NCBI RefSeq assembly: GCF_001748285.1
Contig: NZ_BDGT01000019.1
Location: forward strand, 1 to 64,000
Source: Thermogemmatispora onikobensis
Lineage (GTDB): Bacteria; Chloroflexota; Ktedonobacteria; Ktedonobacterales; Ktedonobacteraceae
Length of the DNA: 64,000 nucleotides
Direction: 5' to 3'
The notes below the pieces were generated by a model, which saw only the letters and a program-made list of their open reading frames with translations, ran no database searches and had not been told where the DNA came from. Below, one piece after another: positions 1 to 9,662 of the stretch. Position 1 is the stretch's first letter. The number at the start of each line of letters is the position of its first letter. A program made the translations under genes and the position numbers.

Positions 1-2559
1 CGGCGCCAGGGGACCATCCTCCAGCAGGCGCTCACAGGCGGCCTTTTCATCAAGATAGCAGGGAGCGCCCAACAAACGGGCTACGGCCTGAGCCTCGCTC
101 ACCGCCCACGGCAGGCGTCCGCGATCGGAGAGGCCCAGCACCAGTGCCTGGCGCAATGCCTGACGGCTGGTCCTCCGGCGCTGACCGCGGCGTCGGCAGA
201 CCTCCAGCAGTTCCAGCGACGGCAGATATGAGACCGCCACCCGCTCTACCAGGAACTGCACACCGTCGAAAAGGCAGTGGAACGGCAGATAGTGCAGCAG
301 GCCATAGGGAACCACCAGCAGGCGCTCACAGGAGTAGAGGGCCGGAAGCACCGGATCTAGCAGGAGATGATAGAGCTTTTGCAATAGGCCCAGACAGTTC
401 TCTTGTAGCTCCTCCAGCTCGGGGATCGCCTGCTCAACAGGGCCCGCCGCCGCCTGTCCTGCCAGATCGAGGTTCAGGCGCCAGAGCGCATAGAGGCGCT
501 CTAGCTCAGCCAAGGCTCCGCGCAGGCGGCGCCAGCGCAAGTGGCCCTCCGCCAGCGAAAAGACATAGAGATCCTCCCCAGCCAGATAGTACTCCAGCAC
601 CACGGTACGCGGTTCCAGGGCACCTTGCAGCTCCGCCAGGCGCGCCAGCCAACCTTCCTCCGCCTTTTCCGCCGTCCGTGAGGGCCGTGTGCTGCCCACG
701 GCTGGCAGCCCGAGCTGTTCCAGCAAACGCTCGATCTGTCGCTCGCGCCGGCGCATCTCCTGACGAGCGTGCGCCGGGTCCAGCGCGCGCAGGCGCATAA
801 TAGCAGTATCGCTCAGATCAATCGCCTGCTCAGTTCCATAGACAAGCGAACTGAACCAGGCCTGCTCTTCACGCAGGCGCGCCAGCTCTTCCAGCAGCGC
901 CTCCACCTCTGGCTGCCCCGACCGCTCGACGTGGACCCGAATCTCAACTGTATTGCGCAGATAGTCGCCGAGCACCCGCGACTTGGCCCGCTCGACGTAG
1001 CCCAAAGCCTGGGCCCCCTCTCCACGGCGCAAGGCCAGGCGGACCGCTCTCTCATAAAGCGTTCGCTTATCTTCCAGAAAGCTGGCGCGCGCATCAAAGA
1101 CCAGGCGCCCCTGAATCTCTTCGATCCCCCGAACCGCCCGCGCATAGGCCCGAGCAGCCTCATCCAGGGCTCCGCGTCGTTCCGCCAGCTGACCGCGTAA
1201 ATCTTCACAGCGATAGACCAGCTCCAGCAGACCCTGCTCGTCTGCCATCCTCAGCGCCTGAGCGCAGAGGGAATCAGCCAATGCCTCGTCGCCGCGGCTC
1301 ATGGCAATCTGGGCCTGCAACAAGAGGGCCCGCGCCAACTGGGGCAAGGCCGCCTGTCTGGAGAAGGCCGTCGCTGCCAGGCGCACCGCTGCCAGGCTCT
1401 CCTCCAGCCGTCCGCTGGCAAACAAGAGTTCCGCCTGCAAGAGTGCCAGCGAGGCCGCCGGCACCTCCAGGCCACTAGCCTCCAAGAGCGTGCGCGCCTG
1501 CGCACAGAGAGTTTCCGCACGCAGCAGCTCCTGCATTGCCAGCGCCGCCTGTGCCTGCCACATCAAAGCCAGCGCCAGGTGATGGCGCCCACGACCGCCA
1601 GGAACCGTGCGGAAAAAAACAGCCGCCTTCTCCGCCAGCTCAGCCGCCTCCTGAACCCGATTCAGGCGGAGCAGGCAATAACAGGTCTCGCAGGCCACCT
1701 CAGCGGCAGCCAGCTCCAGCCCATGCCGCAGAAAAGTCGCCCGACTGCGCTCAAAGAGGGCAAGCGCGCGACTAAAATGGCCCTGAGCCGCATAGATCTG
1801 GGCCATATTCAGCTCCTGACGCGCGACCGCCAGCTCCTGACCGCGATAGGTGGCGAAGACGGCCCGGGCCTGCTCATGCAGCGCCAGGGCCTGGCGGAGC
1901 TGCCCCAGAGCGGCCAGCGTCACCGCCTTATTGGCCCAGGCACGAGCCAGAGGCAACTCGACCCCCTCACCGTGACGGCGATAGGCCTCGATGGCCCGTT
2001 CAAAAAGACCAAGGGCCTGGTCGTAGTGACCAAGCTCATAGTGGACGATGGCCGCAGTGGCATCCATCTGACCAACTCGCAACCAATTGCCCTGCCGAAG
2101 AAAGATCGCTCGCGCCGCCGCTGCGTCCTGCAGGGCCTCCTGGAAGCGGCCCAGCTGGAGACAGACTGCAATCCGTCCACTGCGCGTGCGTGCCCAGCCG
2201 AGCTGATCGTTGCAGACCAGAAATTCGGCTCCAGCTGCATCGAAATTCCTCAGCGCCTCCTCATCACGTTCCAGGCGCCGCAGGGCCTCGGCTCGGGTCA
2301 GCAAGCCAAGCCCCCGATAGTCGCGCCTCCCCGTGCATTCACCAATCAGCAGCAGATGAGCAGCCAGGCGCAATGAAAGCTGCGGATCATCATGCCAGCG
2401 TCGGTCGGCCTCCCGCTTCAGCCACATCACCAGACGACCCAGGGCTTCCGGGTCCAGCGAGGGAAGCCCCTCCCTCAGCAAGCGCTGGCCCTCTTTCTCG
2501 TCCGCCCTCAAGAGCAGCTCAGCGAGCAGTTCCCAGTGTGCCATCACAGAACGTCCCAT
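1..2559 (-). CDS. TPR-CHAT domain protein (caspase-like protease), 3' end missing
   Basis: The minus-strand frame is open for 853 codons from ATG 2559 (second ATG 2544; an in-frame TGA lies 21 nt upstream) to the window edge, so the C-terminus is missing. The N-terminal and middle parts are helical with TPR-like repeats such as LGHYDQALGLFERAIEAYRR and LGQLRQALALHEQARAVF. Around residue 520 comes ERAKSRVLGDYL, typical just before CHAT domains. The CHAT fold begins near residue 650 (VVLEYYLAGEDLYVFSL) and continues with VVPYGLLHYLPFHCLFDG and LVERVAVSYLPSLELL. The catalytic His and Cys of CHAT proteases normally lie further downstream, so they cannot be checked. CHAT domains are caspase-fold cysteine proteases in bacterial signalling and immunity. 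It follows a sigma factor and a zinc-finger protein on the same strand, which suggests a signalling cascade. Family is sure; substrate is unknown. Confidence 0.88.
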   Translation of the reverse strand, partial: MGRSVMAHWELLAELLLRADEKEGQRLLREGLPSLDPEALGRLVMWLKREADRRWHDDPQLSLRLAAHLLLIGECTGRRDYRGLGLLTRAEALRRLERDEEALRNFDAAGAEFLVCNDQLGWARTRSGRIAVCLQLGRFQEALQDAAAARAIFLRQGNWLRVGQMDATAAIVHYELGHYDQALGLFERAIEAYRRHGEGVELPLARAWANKAVTLAALGQLRQALALHEQARAVFATYRGQELAVARQELNMAQIYAAQGHFSRALALFERSRATFLRHGLELAAAEVACETCYCLLRLNRVQEAAELAEKAAVFFRTVPGGRGRHHLALALMWQAQAALAMQELLRAETLCAQARTLLEASGLEVPAASLALLQAELLFASGRLEESLAAVRLAATAFSRQAALPQLARALLLQAQIAMSRGDEALADSLCAQALRMADEQGLLELVYRCEDLRGQLAERRGALDEAARAYARAVRGIEEIQGRLVFDARASFLEDKRTLYERAVRLALRRGEGAQALGYVERAKSRVLGDYLRNTVEIRVHVERSGQPEVEALLEELARLREEQAWFSSLVYGTEQAIDLSDTAIMRLRALDPAHARQEMRRRERQIERLLEQLGLPAVGSTRPSRTAEKAEEGWLARLAELQGALEPRTVVLEYYLAGEDLYVFSLAEGHLRWRRLRGALAELERLYALWRLNLDLAGQAAAGPVEQAIPELEELQENCLGLLQKLYHLLLDPVLPALYSCERLLVVPYGLLHYLPFHCLFDGVQFLVERVAVSYLPSLELLEVCRRRGQRRRTSRQALRQALVLGLSDRGRLPWAVSEAQAVARLLGAPCYLDEKAACERLLEDGPLAP

Positions 2560-2718
2560 TCTTGGACCAGGCCGATCTCAATCATCAAGGCTCACAGTGA
2601 GCAAAACAACAGAAGGAAGAAATGAAAGAAACCCAAGATAGATGAGAGGGGGAAAGGTTAATAGCGAGCCCGAGCCAACGCCCCCCTTTCATCCTCTCCT
2701 TCATTCAGTCAGCCAGAT

Positions 2719-2732
2719 TCCAAACGTTTGGA
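2719..2732. promoter_or_regulatory. 14-bp perfect palindrome upstream of the CHAT gene
   Basis: TCCAAACGTTTGGA is a perfect palindrome in the 277-nt gap between the zinc-finger protein and the TPR-CHAT gene. It lies about 160 nt upstream of the CHAT start. It could be an operator or part of a transcript hairpin. No clear -35/-10 pair was recognised beside it. Confidence 0.35.
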
Positions 2733-2836
2733 GGGCCAGAAAATCACGCAGCAGGAGCCAGGGGAAGCGAAAGGAGAGAGGTCGCTGAGCAAAGGCCGCC
2801 GACAGAAGCAGGTGGTGGAGAGCGAGCACGACCACG

Positions 2837-3775
2837 CTACTCTGGGGCTGCGAGCTGCAGCGACTCAATGACCACGATGCCTTCTGGGAACTGCAATTCG
2901 AGAGTATAGGTCTCCGGGGCCAGAGAGGAGAAGAGGAAATTGCCCAACTCATCGATTCTACCAGAGCGCACAGCTCCCGAAGCGGCGGTCAGGCGCACCG
3001 GTGTCCCCTGGAGGGCCTCCAGAGCCATGCCCTTGCGCGTCACAAAGCCGATCAGCTCCAGGCCATCCTGGCGCGAAGAGCCGTGTTCTACATGGAGAGA
3101 AATGCTAAAATCCTCAGCGCTATAGCGCCGCGGCCAGAGGGTCCCAGCCTGTTCGGCCTGGGCCAGGTCGCGCTGGTAGGCCAGGCGCGGCTGAGGAGCC
3201 AGCAAGGTAGCCACAATGCGGCGCACGCCGGCAGCCATCTGCTCGCCCAGCGATGGGCGGCCCGTGCGAGCGGAGGCCAGGGGATGGGTTTGAGGAGAAG
3301 GGCCATCATCCAGGGGCCAGGAAGAAGGCCAGGGCAGCGCCTCCTCCATCTCAGTCTCAGCTGGCGTCTCTTCTTCCTGCTCCAGAGCCAGCGAGGCAGC
3401 CAGCTCCAATTCGGCGAGGTCCAGCTCAGAGAGTGGGGAAGCCTCCGCCAGCCGAGTCTCGGAGGCCAGAAAATGGGAGAGGACCGCCAGCTCCGCCGCA
3501 CAATGCTGGCAAGTGGCCAGATGGAAACGCACCGCCACAGCGACCTCCTTGTTGAGCAGGCCGAGATAATACTCGCCGAGCACCTGAGCCGGGGGACAAT
3601 CCCAACGATAGAGCGACTGAAGCAAAGTTAACTCAAGGCGGCGATAGCTCTCCACCCGGGTTGCACAGGTGGGGCAAGTAGCCAGGTGCTCCAGCACAGC
3701 AGGTCGCACCTCCTCGCCGGCCAGATAGGCAAGCATCTCTTCGTCGCTGATAGCACCCCGTTGACGACATTCCAT
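2837..3775 (-). CDS. Zinc-finger (HC2-type) putative anti-sigma protein with C-terminal beta-sandwich
   Basis: 312 aa from ATG 3775, chosen because AGAGGA lies 7 nt upstream; the frame stays open to GTG 4036 but that part is low-complexity and has no convincing RBS. Near residues 28-35 there is HLATCPTC and near 85-92 HLATCQHC: two HxxxCxxC motifs like those of ZAS anti-sigma factors. An acidic, Pro-rich linker follows (about 110-180), then a C-terminal domain resembling carboxypeptidase-regulatory-like beta-sandwiches (GTPVRLTAASG, GRIDELGNFLFSSLAPETYTLEL). No membrane segment is visible, so it is probably cytosolic. It lies between an ECF-like sigma gene and a CHAT protease gene. Binding the sigma factor and being cleaved by the protease is an inference from context; no sequence feature proves it. 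Confidence 0.78.
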   Translation of the reverse strand: MECRQRGAISDEEMLAYLAGEEVRPAVLEHLATCPTCATRVESYRRLELTLLQSLYRWDCPPAQVLGEYYLGLLNKEVAVAVRFHLATCQHCAAELAVLSHFLASETRLAEASPLSELDLAELELAASLALEQEEETPAETEMEEALPWPSSWPLDDGPSPQTHPLASARTGRPSLGEQMAAGVRRIVATLLAPQPRLAYQRDLAQAEQAGTLWPRRYSAEDFSISLHVEHGSSRQDGLELIGFVTRKGMALEALQGTPVRLTAASGAVRSGRIDELGNFLFSSLAPETYTLELQFPEGIVVIESLQLAAPE

Positions 3776-4246
3776 GAGCGTTTCCTCTGACTGAACTGGA
3801 TAAGACTGACTGGCAGCGGCATCACCCAGCTCTCCTGACCGAGAGCTCCGCACCTCCACCCAGGCCCTCAGCTCACAGGAGCAGCGAGACCGAAGCAGCC
3901 ATCCGCTTTCTTTCTTTCTTTCTTTCTTTCCTGCTTCTTCCCTCAATCTGGTTTGAGCAACCAGCACAGAACCGACCGGCGTCAGAAGTTGGGAGGTAGG
4001 CCGTCTGCCTGTCTGCTTTCCTGTCTTCACCACCAATAAACGGCTACCCTTGCGATTTTAACGCCTTTGGCAGCTGCCTGCAAGAGCAAGGCAGGGAAGT
4101 TGTTCCTCACTCCGCGAGTCCCTCGGGGCCCCGCTGCGCTCACTGTATCTCACCGCGCCTCACCAGGCACCTCGTCGACCTTCGCAGGCACTAGCGTCTG
4201 CCTGTGAACGGCAAGAGTGAAGGAAGAGGGGCCAGGCTAACCGGCG
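3776..4246. other. Intergenic leader between sigma and zinc-finger genes
   Basis: 471 nt without a supported gene. It contains the (TTTC)6 tract and, on the minus strand, an 87-codon in-frame upstream extension of the zinc-finger protein (GTG 4036) that I do not accept as coding. No clear promoter was recognised, so the zinc-finger gene may be read through from the sigma gene. Confidence 0.5.
3907..3930. repeat. (TTTC)6 tetranucleotide microsatellite
   Basis: Six exact TTTC units (GAAA on the transcribed minus strand), preceded by a C. The tract lies about 130 nt upstream of the chosen ATG of the zinc-finger protein, inside the possible upstream extension. A change in unit number would shift that upstream frame, or alter leader length. 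Confidence 0.9.
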
Positions 4247-5038
4247 CTAACCCTGGCTGCCCTTCATGAGAGCCTGCAAGCGGCGATTGCGACGGAGGCG
4301 ATCGAGCATATTGCGCTTCAGGCGATAGACATCGTTCACCGAAGGGAAGAGATGCTGAAAGCGCAGACAGATCTCTGAAGGTTTCAAGCCCTGAACATAG
4401 GCCAGATAGATCAGCATGCGCTCCTCCTCGCTATGCAACTCTTCCAGGATCACCTGCCAGAGATCCTGAGCCGAGAGCTGAGCCACCACCTCCTCGGCGG
4501 GATCGGCGACCGCCGGCTCGTGCTCCAGAGCCTCCAGCGTCTGCTCAAGCTGCTGGAGCTGTTGCGCACGCCCCTCATCGGTCACCACACTGTGCACACA
4601 CATCTTAAGATACTTCAAGAGAGCGGCCAGGGTCTCGAACTGCTGGACACGGCTCGGAGTCAGTGCCTGGGCAAACTTCGCAAAGACCAGATTCACCAGC
4701 GACTGGCCCCCATCATGCACCAGCAAAGGGGAGGCTGCCGGATGCTGATGTACCCAACTCAAGACCAGGGGGGCATACTGCTGATAGAGGCAGGCCCAGG
4801 CCTCTTCATCGCGCAGCATCAAGGCCCGACGGAACAGCTCCAGACAGTAGCGATCGTCGGCGCGCTTCTGCTTCAGAAAGCGGCTCGTCTCCTCGGCACA
4901 GGCTCGCGCCAGAGCGGGAACCGACCATTGCCCCAAAGGTAACAGGCGCTCATCCGCCTCTGGCCGGGCCGCAGCGCCGCTCGTGACCTCCGGTTGCGAG
5001 CCGATCTCGCCATGAGAAGAAGAGCCGGGAGACTCCAT
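4247..5038 (-). CDS. ECF-like sigma-70 family RNA polymerase sigma factor
   Basis: 263 aa. The first ~50 residues are a low-complexity extension. Residues about 60-130 look like sigma region 2 (LELFRRALMLRDEEAWACLYQQY). A variable linker follows, and residues about 185-255 form a region-4-like HTH (EERMLIYLAYVQGLKPSEIC, then DVYRLKRNMLDRLRRNRRL). It is longer than a typical 180-200-aa ECF factor. The start has AGGGAGGAG about 11 nt upstream, and a consensus-like promoter lies at 5133-5161. It is the first gene of a minus-strand series with a zinc-finger protein and a TPR-CHAT protease. It likely directs RNA polymerase to an unknown regulon under control of its neighbours. Confidence 0.8.
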   Translation of the reverse strand: MESPGSSSHGEIGSQPEVTSGAAARPEADERLLPLGQWSVPALARACAEETSRFLKQKRADDRYCLELFRRALMLRDEEAWACLYQQYAPLVLSWVHQHPAASPLLVHDGGQSLVNLVFAKFAQALTPSRVQQFETLAALLKYLKMCVHSVVTDEGRAQQLQQLEQTLEALEHEPAVADPAEEVVAQLSAQDLWQVILEELHSEEERMLIYLAYVQGLKPSEICLRFQHLFPSVNDVYRLKRNMLDRLRRNRRLQALMKGSQG

Positions 5039-5132
5039 AAGCAGACGCTCCTCCCTGAGTGCAGGCCGTAGTGAGCGCTCACCAGCCCCAACCAGCTACC
5101 AAGCCTGGCTGGCTGCGTGCAAACGCTCTTGC

Positions 5133-5161
5133 AGTATAGCATCAGCCGCGGCGGCTGGCAA
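5133..5161 (-). promoter_or_regulatory. Sigma-70-type promoter of the sigma/zinc-finger/CHAT cluster
   Basis: On the minus strand TTGCCA (5161-5156), a 17-nt spacer, then TATACT (5138-5133). Transcription would start near 5126, giving an 88-nt leader to the sigma ATG. It resembles the housekeeping consensus rather than an ECF-type promoter, so simple autoregulation is not indicated. Confidence 0.65.
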
Positions 5162-5515
5162 GCCCGAGCTGCTCCCTCCTGCCCGCCAGTCTGCGGGCAT
5201 CCGTACTACCCGTACGCCTCTCTACCCCCCCCCAGCGGCCCGCCTCCTGTCCTCTCTTGTCCCTCTTGTTTCTCTATACCAATTCAGTACCTTCAAGACT
5301 GACCTGGCCTTCCCCGAAATACCAACCATGCAGATTTTATCACAGCAGGCACCTGGAACAGAAACAGCCCCTGACGTGCTAAGAAAGATATCCCAGAAGA
5401 TGCGCCGGGGATGGTACATTTACCTTGCCTATGCTATCATAGATTGACGGTTGCTGCCGACATTCGTCTCAACGGGGAGCGGAGAGCGGCCATCATCGGG
5501 CAGAGCGAGGCACCC
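5162..5515. other. Divergent intergenic region
   Basis: 354 nt between the sigma-factor promoter and the DUF4388 gene. It has a C9 run near 5225 and a more AT-rich stretch around 5310-5450 that probably holds the rightward promoter of the DUF4388 gene, but no good -35/-10 pair was assigned. The frame of the DUF4388 protein is open back to ATG 5411. Confidence 0.4.
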
Positions 5516-6235
5516 ATGCCACAGCAACGACAGACAGTCACTAATCGGCTCGCCGACGTGATCGAGGTCGTTCAGTTAGGACGTAAGACGGGCCTGCTGA
5601 CGGTCGAGCGTGGGGAAGGCACAGCATTGGAAGAGGGTGCCATCACTTTTGTGCATGGACAGCCTGTGCAGGCACGACTCGGGCCACATAGCGGCGTCGA
5701 AGCCCTCAGACGCTTGAAGCTCTGGGGTCCTTGTCGCTTTGCTTTCGTACCTTTCAGCCCTCCTTCATCCCCACTCCCACCTTTGCTCGATGGGCACGCT
5801 ACTCCCGGCTCACTGCCGGCTCTCCCGCAGCGCCAGGGGACCGATCCGCGCTTGCGCCGGATGCCCGCTTCCCCACCTTCAGGCCCGCTCGGCTCGCTGC
5901 CCTTTCCCAAAACGGGCACAGGCCCTGCTACGGGCCCACGGGCAACCCCTCCGCTGCCCCCGCGCCAGACCGAGCCTAGCCCGGACAGGTGGGTGCCCCT
6001 GCCCGGCAGCGGGATGTTCTCCCGCGCCCCAAGCCGCGTGCCGCTCTACGGCGACGCCTTGCAGCGCCTGGAACAGCTCGGCTTCTCACGTGCCCATCGC
6101 CGGCTCTACTTGCTGATCGATGGCACCCGCACACCCGCCGAGCTGGCCCGCCTGATGGGCCGCAGCGAGGATGAAGTCCTGCGCCTGCTCGCCGATCTGG
6201 AGCATGCCGGCTTCGTGGCCCCTTCTTCGTCGTAA
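5516..6235 (+). CDS. DUF4388 domain protein with C-terminal winged-helix-like domain
   Basis: 239 aa from ATG 5516 with GCGAGGCA upstream; an upstream in-frame ATG (5411) is possible but less likely. Residues about 8-90 match the DUF4388 (PATAN-like) pattern: NRLADVIEVVQLGRKTGLLTV, EEGAITFVHGQPVQARLG and a Phe-rich end. A Pro/Gly/Ser-rich linker of about 80 residues follows. The C-terminus (LLIDGTRTPAELARLMGRSE ... LLADLEHAGFV) looks like a small winged helix. DUF4388 proteins occur in bacterial signalling networks, with no fixed biochemical activity. It lies upstream of a Cache sensor protein on the same strand, so a linked signalling role is possible. Confidence 0.75.
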   Translation: MPQQRQTVTNRLADVIEVVQLGRKTGLLTVERGEGTALEEGAITFVHGQPVQARLGPHSGVEALRRLKLWGPCRFAFVPFSPPSSPLPPLLDGHATPGSLPALPQRQGTDPRLRRMPASPPSGPLGSLPFPKTGTGPATGPRATPPLPPRQTEPSPDRWVPLPGSGMFSRAPSRVPLYGDALQRLEQLGFSRAHRRLYLLIDGTRTPAELARLMGRSEDEVLRLLADLEHAGFVAPSSS

Positions 6236-6553
6236 TTCATTCATTCAAGGATGAATACCTGTTAATAATAAATAATAGGCATCTTTTTCGACAAGAGAGA
6301 GGATCTGGCGCCCAACAAGCGCCAACCCTGGCCTCCCTCCCTCGGCCCAGCCTGGCAGCCAGACCTTGCTTCGCCAGTCGCAACGCCAGGGACCTTGTGT
6401 AATAGCTCGCCTCCGCCTGGACCGGCGGAGGTCGAGGCCGCGACAGGCCAGGTCTCTTCATCCAGTAGGACGCTGCCAGCATCAGTATGTCAGTGCCAGT
6501 AGACCGGGGCGCCGCTGGCCGCCCCCTGGATACCAAAGGACGGGTTTTCTCCC
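6236..6553. other. Intergenic region with GC-rich hairpin
   Basis: 318 nt between the DUF4388 and Cache genes. It starts with an AT-rich stretch (6240-6285) and contains a perfect 8-bp inverted repeat, CCTCCGCC (6410-6417) and GGCGGAGG (6424-6431), with a 6-nt loop and no following T-run. No gene is supported. Confidence 0.55.
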
Positions 6554-8071
6554 ATGCGTGATCAAGCGATATCGTCATATCGCCGGCGGGGCCTCTCCCT
6601 GACCGCGCGCGTCTCTTTGCTCCTGGTTTTTGTCGCCATCGTTCCGCTGCTCATCACCATCGTCGTCAGCCAGTTCATCTCTCTTCCTGCGCTGACTACG
6701 CAGGCCCGCACCTCTCTGGATACCGATTCCAGCGAGCGCGTGCAGCTGATCAGTAACTACCTGAATGAACGCCTGCTTGATGCCGAGACCCTCGTCCAGG
6801 TCCCCTCGGTGATCCAGTTCTTGCTCGCTCCTCCCGCCCAGCGCGAAGATCCGAACTTCAGCGTTCATTCACTCTACGCTCTCCAGGCGGGAATCAATCG
6901 CGATAACCGCTATGTGCTTTGGTGTCTCTTTGATGCTCAAGGCCACCTGGTACAGTACTGGCCGACGAACGTCCATCCGCAGAACCGCGGCCAGTCCCTC
7001 GTGCCTCTCCCCTACCTGCGGCGCGTCGACGCCAACCAGCTCTTTATCTCCGGCGTCTACTACGACAGCGCCCACAATAAGGCTTCGGTCGATATTTACG
7101 CTCCCATCACCTATCAGAAGCATGTGATCGGTTTTCTACGCGCTTCGTTGAATATCGATTTTATCTGGGACACGGTCAACAGTGAGACCGGCGCCAATGG
7201 GCCGGGCAGCTATGCTTTCTTGCTCGACGAGCGCGGGGTGCGCATCGCTGATCCCAATCCCGCACGCCGCTTCAAGGCTGTGGCCCCTCTCGCGGCCCAA
7301 GAGATGCAGGATATCAAGACTGAGGGCCTCTATGGCCTGCAGGGCGATCAGGACAGCCTGCCGCTGCTGGCCGACAGCACGCTGGCCCAGTCGCTGCATA
7401 GTAGCCAGACCTCTTCTTCCTTCGAGGCTACTCCTGCCAGCGAGCACGAGCCGTACGAGATTCTGCGCCACAAGATGACGGTTGTTCCCTGGACCTACTA
7501 TGTGCTGAGCCCGGTCAGCACGGTGACGGCAGTGGTGAATAACCAGATGGTGAGCACTATTGTGATCGCGGCGGCCATGCTCTTGCTGGCCTCCTTTGTT
7601 GGCCTCTGGCTCGGACAGCGCATCACGCAGCCGATTCTGCGCTCGGTTGACCACCTGCGCCGCAGCAGTGAGTCGCTGCAAACGCTGGCGGCCAAGCAGC
7701 AGAGTTCGTCGAGCGAACAGCAGTGGGTGATCGATTCCGCCCAGGTGGGTCTGCAATCGGTGCAGTATTATACGGATGCGAGCAATGTGGCCGCACGTCA
7801 GTTGACCTCAATGGTGACGGAGCTGCTCCAGCGCTGGCCTCAGCTTGATGCTCGCACGGCCCAGCGAGCCTTGCAGGAGATGGCTACTACGGCGCGCTAT
7901 ATTGAGCAGGCCATCCAGTATCAGGAGACGAGCAACCAGAAGCTGGCAACGGCGATTAAGGTGACAACGCAGGTGAGCGAGCAGCTCGCGGCAGGCGCGA
8001 CGTCGGCGACGAGCGCCGCCGAGCAGCTGGAGCAGGTGGTGCGCCAGCTCCGCCGCGTGGTTGGCCGCTAG
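6554..8071 (+). CDS. Membrane sensor protein with Cache domain, HAMP-like region and C-terminal coiled coil
   Basis: 505 aa. A membrane segment lies at about 20-42 (VSLLLVFVAIVPLLITIVV). An extracytoplasmic region of about 290 residues follows with dCache-like features (YALQAGINRDNRYVLWCLFDAQG, FISGVYYDSAHNKASVDIYAPI, IGFLRASLNIDFIWDTV, SYAFLLDERGVRIADP). A second membrane segment (TIVIAAAMLLLASFVGLWLG, about 335-355) leads to a HAMP-like stretch (ITQPILRSVDHLRRSS) and a Gln/Ala/Ser-rich coiled coil to the end. This matches chemoreceptor or sensor topology, but the conserved chemoreceptor hairpin tip, a kinase domain and a cyclase domain are all absent. The output partner is unknown. Confidence 0.75.
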   Translation: MRDQAISSYRRRGLSLTARVSLLLVFVAIVPLLITIVVSQFISLPALTTQARTSLDTDSSERVQLISNYLNERLLDAETLVQVPSVIQFLLAPPAQREDPNFSVHSLYALQAGINRDNRYVLWCLFDAQGHLVQYWPTNVHPQNRGQSLVPLPYLRRVDANQLFISGVYYDSAHNKASVDIYAPITYQKHVIGFLRASLNIDFIWDTVNSETGANGPGSYAFLLDERGVRIADPNPARRFKAVAPLAAQEMQDIKTEGLYGLQGDQDSLPLLADSTLAQSLHSSQTSSSFEATPASEHEPYEILRHKMTVVPWTYYVLSPVSTVTAVVNNQMVSTIVIAAAMLLLASFVGLWLGQRITQPILRSVDHLRRSSESLQTLAAKQQSSSSEQQWVIDSAQVGLQSVQYYTDASNVAARQLTSMVTELLQRWPQLDARTAQRALQEMATTARYIEQAIQYQETSNQKLATAIKVTTQVSEQLAAGATSATSAAEQLEQVVRQLRRVVGR

Positions 8072-8201
8072 CTGCCCGCGCTTTCTTCTTGGAGTTCGCA
8101 GGGCAATAGCTCAACGAGAGAGCAGTGGCAGGACGGTGCCGCGTCCGCGCGCGCATCGTCCTGTCGTTTTGTGAGCGCATGACGATGGAGGGTGTGGAAT
8201 C

Positions 8202-8873
8202 ATGTCCATCCAGTTTAGAGGAGAGCAGGCCGGCGAGCTGGTGCCGCTTGGTCCTATTGTACGCCTCCAGGTGCAGACGGCTCCGCTGAAGGTCGCCGGG
8301 GGCGAGGAAGGGCTGCGCTACGATCCCGCTCCGCTGCGGTCAGTGGCCCAGCTCTGGCTGTCTGTGGATGGCGTTTTCGCCCTACTGCCAGATGGCAGCC
8401 GCCTGCTCGATGTCCACCATCGAGCCTATCCGCGTTCACGCAATCGCAGCGGTAAGAATGGCGTGTCACTAGGCTTTACAGCCCATTACCAGGCGATGCG
8501 CACCCGCTTCGGGGAGCATGTGACGGACGGCTGCGCCGGCGAGAATATTTTGATCGCTACTGAGCAGCCGCTGCGCCTGGAGCAGATCGAGCATGGACTC
8601 CTGATTGTGAGAGCCTCTAGAGCACAGCCAGTCGCGCTGACCCGGCTGCGCGTGGCGACGCCTTGTCTGGAGTTTACGCGCTTTGCTCTGGGTCCAGAGG
8701 CCTGGTTTGCCTCTTCGCCGGAGCTGAAGGCGGCCCTGCAGTTTCTGGACCGGGGTCAGCGCGGCTTCTATGCAACCTGCCTTTCAGAGGAGGCGGTGGC
8801 TATCTCCTGCGGCGACCAGGTCTTTGCTTTGCCAGCCCCGGGAACGGGACGGGCAGAGGCCGCCGCAGGGTGA
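8202..8873 (+). CDS. MOSC domain protein
   Basis: 223 aa from ATG 8202 with GGAGGG about 10 nt upstream. Residues about 50-130 carry MOSC-like features: VDGVFALLPDGSRLLDVHHRAYPRSRNR, the NGVSLGFTAHYQAMRTRFGEH stretch and the typical GCAGENILI motif. MOSC domains are sulfur-carrier domains related to the molybdenum-cofactor sulfurase C-terminus; stand-alone versions such as YiiM and YuaD act in metal-sulfur or detoxification chemistry. Two Cys residues lie near the C-terminus (FYATCLSEEAVAISCG), but whether either is the sulfur carrier is unknown. It converges with the ABC permease gene 18 nt away, so the neighbours give no clue to function. Confidence 0.7.
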   Translation: MSIQFRGEQAGELVPLGPIVRLQVQTAPLKVAGGEEGLRYDPAPLRSVAQLWLSVDGVFALLPDGSRLLDVHHRAYPRSRNRSGKNGVSLGFTAHYQAMRTRFGEHVTDGCAGENILIATEQPLRLEQIEHGLLIVRASRAQPVALTRLRVATPCLEFTRFALGPEAWFASSPELKAALQFLDRGQRGFYATCLSEEAVAISCGDQVFALPAPGTGRAEAAAG

Positions 8874-8891
8874 ATAGAACAGGTCCGCTGC

Positions 8892-9662
8892 TTAGGCGAC
8901 CGCCCGCTTGAGAGAGCACAGACCCCAGAAGAGGGCCAGGAGCGCGAAGGCGCCGGCACAAAGGTAGCCCTGCCAGACGGCTACGTCACCTAGCCTACCC
9001 AGGAAGAGGGCCCGCGCCCCATCCACAACATAGGCAAAGGGATTGAAGTGGGCTATCGCCCGCAATGGAGGGGGTGCCAGCGTCAGGGGCAGTAAGACGC
9101 CCGAGAGCAGCAGAAGCGGGACACTGACCATGTTGAGCAGGGACGAGAGGGCCTCAGCACTGCGCAAGAGAAAGGCCAGGGCATAGGAGCAGGCCGCCAG
9201 GCCCAGACCTAGCAGAACAAGCAGCAGGAGCGCCAGTAAGAGGCTACCAGGAGAGACTCGCAGCCCGAGCGGTAGGGCAATGAGACAGATCAGCAGCACC
9301 TGGATGAGCAGGGTCATTATGTCGAGCAGCACGCGGCTGAGCAAGAGAGCCGCCCGCGGTATAGGCGTAACAAGCAGACGCTCAATGAAGCCGCCCTGCA
9401 GTTCGACCACAAGCCCAAAGCCAACATAGCCTGTCCCAAAGAGGGCCATCATGACCAGGAGTCCAGGAACGTAGAAGGTCATGGCTTCTCCCGCCGCTAT
9501 GGCCGGGATGCCGCTGAGGTTCTGCAGCAAGGGCGCAAAGAGGAGGAGATAACACAGCGGCTGAAAGAGGCCAAAGATGACCCAGATAGGATGACGCCAG
9601 GTCTGCCGGGCCTGGCGCAGCCAGAGATACCATACACTAGAGAAGAGAGACATGCTGCTCAC
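8892..9662 (-). CDS. ABC-2 type transporter permease (DrrB-like)
   Basis: 256 aa. The sequence is a classic six-helix ABC-2 permease: PIWVIFGLFQPLCYLLLFAPLL, MTFYVPGLLVMMALFGTGYVG, then EGFIERLLVTPIPR-like coupling motif seen here as GGFIERLLVTPIPRAALL, LLALLLLVLLGLGLAACSYALAF, a gate segment (VSVPLLLLSGVLLPL) and a C-terminal helix. The GTG start at 9662 overlaps the stop of the ATPase gene by 4 nt (GTGA), showing translational coupling. An ATG three codons later (9653) is an alternative start. It probably forms a dimer with two ATPase subunits to export a hydrophobic drug or lipid. The operator in front of the ATPase gene should control both genes. Confidence 0.9.
   Translation of the reverse strand: MSSMSLFSSVWYLWLRQARQTWRHPIWVIFGLFQPLCYLLLFAPLLQNLSGIPAIAAGEAMTFYVPGLLVMMALFGTGYVGFGLVVELQGGFIERLLVTPIPRAALLLSRVLLDIMTLLIQVLLICLIALPLGLRVSPGSLLLALLLLVLLGLGLAACSYALAFLLRSAEALSSLLNMVSVPLLLLSGVLLPLTLAPPPLRAIAHFNPFAYVVDGARALFLGRLGDVAVWQGYLCAGAFALLALFWGLCSLKRAVA

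Follow-up and report, generated by a model that had tools for sequence, protein, structure and literature searches.

Can a TPR-CHAT protease of the kind known from CRISPR systems control a bacterial sigma factor where CRISPR has no part? The question is raised by the first 5.2 kb of the window, a 64,000-nt stretch of DNA at the left end of a contig (C19) of the 5.56 Mb genome of Thermogemmatispora onikobensis, whose nearest relatives are other Thermogemmatispora species. Three genes lie there on the minus strand, in the order sigma factor, zinc-finger protein, and a protein with tetratricopeptide repeats (TPRs) and a CHAT domain. In type III-E CRISPR systems it is established that the TPR-CHAT protease Csx29 cleaves a sigma inhibitor, Csx30 (PMC10028731), and the original prediction, made from the letters of the window, had read the three genes as a CRISPR-free analogue of that Craspase signalling arm. 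All three are confirmed on one strand, with coordinates and profile matches. The variant of protease-controlled sigma signalling that they form is real, conserved and previously uncharacterised; prior art includes the neighbourhood of ECF54 sigma factors with CHAT proteins and subtilases, and the Myxococcus anti-sigma factor DdvA. As the best explanation of the triplet, we lean towards a soluble, CRISPR-independent protease relay. By analogy with Csx29, the TPR-CHAT protein probably turns on gene expression through its effect on the probable sigma inhibitor beside it, free of CRISPR.

Three genes and a divided CHAT domain

The TPR-CHAT gene (1..2559, minus strand; PF12770 and TPRs) is cut by the contig end, so that the window holds its N-terminal 853 residues. 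The TPR superhelix covers about residues 8-485 (nt 2538-1105, minus strand), and the CHAT domain starts at residue 725 (nt 387-1, minus strand). A CHAT search across the genome shows that contig C11 opens with the complementary half (G000:C11:1-435, plus strand), which has the remaining 144 residues of the protein and the motifs AAHG (His) and LSACETG (Cys). With PF12770, for which the cut-off is 24, the N half scores 61.5 bits and the C half 127.6 bits, and their coverage of the profile runs over positions 3-136 on C19 and 149-289 on C11. When the two contigs are joined and compared to the uninterrupted 1001-residue orthologue of T. carboxidivorans, exactly four residues, LLHI (12 bp), are missing. 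The original prediction had placed the catalytic His and Cys beyond the contig end; judged by their motifs, both are present. The dyad motifs are kept in complete orthologues, and every complete CHAT among the inspected loci with a sigma/zinc-finger pair has His-Gly and S-[AG]-C-E-T. The predicted structure of a complete orthologue is a long TPR superhelix followed by the CHAT domain, with a mean predicted local distance difference test (pLDDT) of 77. Its best folds in the PDB are separases, followed by Csx29 and DdvA (the latter at ranks 10 and 12), and the CHAT profile also matches the Csx29 and DdvA entries (DdvA with E=5e-10).

The likeness to the Craspase arm in gene content and fold stands. 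Membership does not: by these sequence measures the locus, though it would work like the Csx29/Csx30/sigma arm, does not belong to type III-E, because the Csx29 model (NF041237) stays far below its cut-off of 300 bits, with 35 bits for the window protein, 60 for the complete orthologue and 35 to 67 overall, and because the RAMP genes are of ordinary size and on other contigs. RAMP matches in the genome occur only on contigs C8 and C10, in open reading frames (ORFs) of 281-455 residues typical of ordinary multi-subunit type III systems. No ORF of the size of gRAMP (Cas7-11) is found in the genome, and no RAMP match on C19 or C11.

The zinc-finger gene (2837..3775, minus strand) encodes 312 residues from a conserved ATG; a 399-residue ORF uses a non-conserved upstream TTG. 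The protein has an anti-sigma-like layout, with a tandem zinc region, a linker, an RRIxATL..P segment and a C-terminal beta-sandwich. In the tandem region (3491..3775, minus strand) there are two H-x3-C-x2-C sites, the double motif of the original prediction, and at both a further Cys lies 24-26 residues ahead of the His (ligands C3, H30, C34, C37 and C60, H85, C89, C92). All eight ligands are invariant in 24 sequences, 22 of which match zf-HC2 (23.6 bits for the window protein, cut-off 22.2). This pattern fits two zinc anti-sigma (ZAS) sites. The AlphaFold2 model (mean pLDDT 71) has a helical N-terminal half and a confident beta-sandwich (residues about 212-308; 2852..3142, minus strand), as predicted, to which a weak CarboxypepD_reg match corresponds; otherwise the sandwich gives generic Ig/FN3/CnaB-like matches only. 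A Csx30-like fold finds no match, and Csx30 is absent among the sequence and fold matches of the protein, although the PDB covers Csx30 only in part. The segment directly before the sandwich is conserved as RRIxATLxPxxPxxxxxR. In the window it reads RRIVATLLAPQPRLAYQR (3167..3226, minus strand) and contains the invariant Arg202 (codon 3172-3170), a candidate site of CHAT recognition or cleavage. Model confidence is low at residues 137-182 and 196-211, and the latter stretch, around Arg202, is probably disordered. The acidic linker that the original prediction had noted exists in the window protein (residues about 119-157; 3305..3421, minus strand; low pLDDT from 137), but it is an insertion confined to Thermogemmatispora and therefore an unlikely cleavage site, and we rejected it.

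The sigma gene (4247..5038, minus strand) encodes a divergent ECF-type sigma-70 family factor of 263 residues. It matches the sigma70-ECF model TIGR02937 with E=3.5e-8 and 33.3 bits, below the cut-off of 42.9, and it has no Pfam match; 19 of the 21 members of this sigma family match that model. An hhalign comparison to canonical ECFs gives E=3e-4 with a probability of 41%. The best PDB sequence matches of the sigma factor and the zinc-finger protein are marginal and include RpoE and ChrR of R. sphaeroides (E=0.1 and 0.25), the two partners of one solved complex. Binding of the sigma factor by the zinc-finger protein finds support in the tandem ZAS sites and in a fusion of the two beside a CHAT gene (L222): a single ORF of 516 residues with sigma (23-236), ZAS (294-398) and sandwich (422-513). 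The promoter, 95 bp before the sigma ATG, is TTGCCA-N17-TATACT with a TG extension (5133..5161, minus strand). It had been called a good one, and it is identical or near-identical in six Thermogemmatispora genomes and conserved in all congeners, with extended -10-like sites upstream of sigma orthologues in several other genera. Its form suggests recognition by the housekeeping sigma. In several genera the -10 box (window 5138-5133) lies inside ATGC...GCAT half-sites, a possible operator.

What goes with the CHAT gene

The co-occurrence that the original prediction expected in relatives extends far beyond the genus. The zinc-finger protein is found in 34 of 61 relatives, the order sigma/zinc-finger/TPR-CHAT is kept in every locus of the same family with sufficient contig reach (L038-L062), and it recurs in 11 of the 13 genera searched in that family. 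Triplets are also present outside the class, in other Chloroflexota lineages (L130, L131, L166, L169, L170, L179); a broad search aimed at other phyla yielded matches in Chloroflexota only. The hosts come from soil and hot springs. Several genomes have a second chromosomal locus with another sigma/zinc-finger pair, where the CHAT is present in some species (L076, L077, L078, L082, L085, L099) and absent in others. In Ktedonosporobacter (G009), an apparently decaying CHAT gene, a remnant of 100 residues, lies by an intact pair (L075:5920-7119). Arrangements also vary at greater distance. In L182 and L224 the CHAT gene adjoins but is divergent. The CHAT of L217, L219, L220 and L221 is preceded by a canonical ECF sigma, with a protein of the same C-terminal type between the two in L217, L219 and L220. 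In L218 (3816-4397) and L219 (4041-4655), CHAT-adjacent anti-sigma-like proteins have no ZAS Cys/His ligands and keep the Arg and the beta-sandwich. At four annotated plasmid CHATs (Streptomyces, Caballeronia, Nostoc) a sigma neighbour is absent.

Within the anti-sigma, it is the C-terminal half alone whose presence follows that of CHAT. Among 78 assessable tandem-ZAS loci, a CHAT gene is adjacent in 46 of the 64 with a C-terminal extension and in none of the 12 without one (Fisher p=2.8e-6, with no correction for relatedness). A tree built from joined sigma and ZAS sequences has 8 changes of CHAT, 4 of the Arg and 3 of the extension, and the absence of Arg or extension is seen in CHAT-less rows only. 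Amongst 38 non-redundant proteins directly upstream of a CHAT gene, the Arg is invariant in all 38; just one other column of their alignment is fully invariant, and the distance from the Arg to the sandwich varies. The set includes proteins with a canonical ECF sigma, or with no sigma, nearby.

A proposed protease relay and its rivals

In the relay that we favour, a housekeeping-type promoter of its own would drive the sigma gene, and the zinc-finger protein would keep the sigma factor inactive by means of its tandem-ZAS domain. The C-terminal beta-sandwich of that protein would dock on the CHAT domain. A signal received by the TPR superhelix would order the His/Cys dyad of CHAT, which would then act on the flexible segment before the sandwich, around the invariant Arg202; the anti-sigma would be cut or destabilised, the sigma factor freed, and its regulon transcribed. 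We infer sigma binding, docking, TPR sensing and sigma release as steps. That CHAT cleaves the anti-sigma is moderately likely, and that the cut falls exactly after Arg202 is possible rather than expected.

Several observations weigh against this relay or against details of it. The Asp with which separase reads the P1 Arg corresponds to K670 in a Craspase TPR-CHAT (PMC9729208), and in the CHATs here the aligned position is not acidic; the alignment gives no support to a separase-type P1-Arg pocket, and cleavage after Arg is therefore unsupported by that residue. The Craspase cut site is itself not conserved between orthologues (PMC11106740). Given this variable site and the non-acidic pocket position, Arg202 may serve for recognition and not be the P1 residue itself. 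Nor is the Arg strictly tied to an adjacent CHAT, an idea that we rejected: of the 18 CHAT-less loci that have the extension, 10 still carry the Arg. Eight of the 10 genomes concerned hold a related CHAT elsewhere, and the other two (G007, G019) have no such CHAT anywhere; CHATs are common in comparison genomes too, many of which are also positive, and the prediction that Arg-keeping genomes carry a CHAT elsewhere does not discriminate. An independent-pairs sign test is not significant (7 CHAT pairs, about 2 in the same direction and 0 in the opposite one), because few pairs differ. Triplet synteny within Ktedonobacteria is partly a common flanking gene order, which makes flanking genes a weak test of linkage, and it is therefore the deep and rearranged loci that bear weight for a functional link. 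Finally, stand-alone beta-sandwich proteins without ZAS precede the CHAT in L206 and L207, and so the sandwich may serve beyond sigma control.

Those two loci also favour the main rival of the protease relay, since their sandwich proteins carry LRG right before the sandwich and adjoin CHAT with no sigma or ZAS. By this securin-like account, the sandwich and Arg segment would be a pseudosubstrate or chaperone that holds CHAT inactive, CHAT would be the output, as a regulated protease or death effector, and the sigma/anti-sigma pair would govern its level or release. Separase is inhibited by a pseudosubstrate (PMC10317155), and the triplet ends with CHAT, which an S8 subtilase often follows. Anti-sigmas without a CHAT neighbour often have no sandwich or Arg while sigma and ZAS persist, which is compatible with either direction of control. 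The data fit both accounts, and we consider the securin-like one unlikely, though of real standing. Control by binding alone, in which TPR-CHAT would sense a ligand, dock on the anti-sigma and so draw it away from the sigma factor, much as CHAT may be the sensor domain of DdvA, strikes us as distinctly improbable. It draws on DdvA being an anti-sigma (PDB 8rot, 8rw5) whose chain is named a CHAT domain-containing protein and which is among the profile and model matches described above, but the His and Cys conserved in all those complete CHATs would be needless for a pure scaffold.

A slightly smaller chance still goes to the ZAS sites as the real sensor, of redox or zinc, with CHAT as a co-regulated passenger gene. 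A response to oxidative stress is known for soluble ZAS anti-sigmas, among them ChrR, RshA and RseA of M. tuberculosis (PMC8999054), and in other Chloroflexota families (f15, f53) short tandem-ZAS proteins occur with the same sigma family and with neither CHAT nor sandwich (L172-L178). Against this, CHAT is associated with different sigma types, in a divergent gene order and with ZAS-less partners (L217-L219, L182/L224), and the C-terminal half of the anti-sigma tracks it. An anti-phage defence system was also considered for the locus and rejected, there being no PADLOC match.

Neighbouring genes, known systems and meaning

Divergent from the sigma gene lie a gene for a DUF4388 protein (5411..6235, plus strand) and one for a dCache-domain protein (6554..8071, plus strand), and the same two adjoin the triplet in 9 other loci from several genera. 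No Rfam elements are found in window positions 1-9000. At the other end, of 13 distant loci tested, 12 have an S8 subtilase as the next ORF beyond CHAT (L063, L076, L077, L166, L179, L206, L208, L212, L216, L217, L218, L224), which suggests a two-protease cassette there; the window locus has a GBBH-like_N protein after CHAT and no subtilase.

The type III-E Craspase arm shares with this locus a TPR-CHAT protease of separase-like fold that has an ECF-type sigma and a sigma inhibitor next to it (PMC10028731). What goes with CHAT is, in either system, the C-terminal part of the inhibitor, as shown for Csx30 (PMC10028731) and as seen here by co-occurrence. Apart from the absence of gRAMP/Cas7-11 at the Thermogemmatispora locus and the low Csx29 scores, the inhibitor here differs in being a tandem-ZAS and beta-sandwich protein of about 310 residues, compared to about 565 for Csx30, and its candidate site includes an invariant Arg, in contrast to the variable sites of Csx30 (PMC11106740). 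For ECF54 sigmas, carboxypeptidase, subtilase and CHAT proteins are described in the neighbourhood, and proteolytic regulation is proposed with no anti-sigma (PMC8999054). Compared by neighbourhood, our loci are alike in the CarboxypepD_reg-like sandwich, the CHAT and, in the distant loci just listed, the subtilase, and unlike in that the sandwich protein carries tandem ZAS and that the window locus has no subtilase. The ECF54 “carboxypeptidase” could be such a CarboxypepD_reg-like sandwich, and the zinc-finger protein, by this analogy, the missing anti-sigma.

In Myxococcus xanthus, the ECF sigma DdvS is controlled by a CHAT-containing anti-sigma (for the sigma/anti-sigma pair, PMC4374960), but DdvA is a single transmembrane protein, while the ZAS and TPR-CHAT parts here are separate ORFs and apparently soluble. 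The soluble ZAS anti-sigmas ChrR and RsrA have the HxxxCxxC site with an upstream ligand at about 24-26 residues and a C-terminal regulatory domain; here there are two tandem sites, the first ligand is a Cys, the regulatory domain is a beta-sandwich and not a cupin, and there is a CHAT partner. With separase and securin the triplet shares a superhelix and a CHAT-like, caspase-fold protease, whose top fold matches are separases, and it differs in its proposed substrate, a bacterial anti-sigma, and in the P1-Arg-reading Asp, which is not conserved by alignment.

These comparisons allow a wider and more tentative reading, which we think less probable than its opposite. The type III-E Csx29-Csx30-RpoE arm would have been captured from an older and widespread chromosomal relay, whose TPR-CHATs cut anti-sigmas, with or without ZAS, at an invariant Arg by a beta-sandwich, so that beta-sandwich and CHAT would form a portable proteolytic input module for different sigma/anti-sigma pairs. 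The proposed relay at the Thermogemmatispora locus would show that caspase-like TPR-CHAT proteases control bacterial transcription without CRISPR, and would point to a likely evolutionary source of the Craspase signalling arm. It would also supply the anti-sigma missing from the ECF54-like CHAT/subtilase neighbourhood, and would offer a small three-protein system, in cultured thermophilic and soil bacteria, for finding what TPR-CHAT senses.

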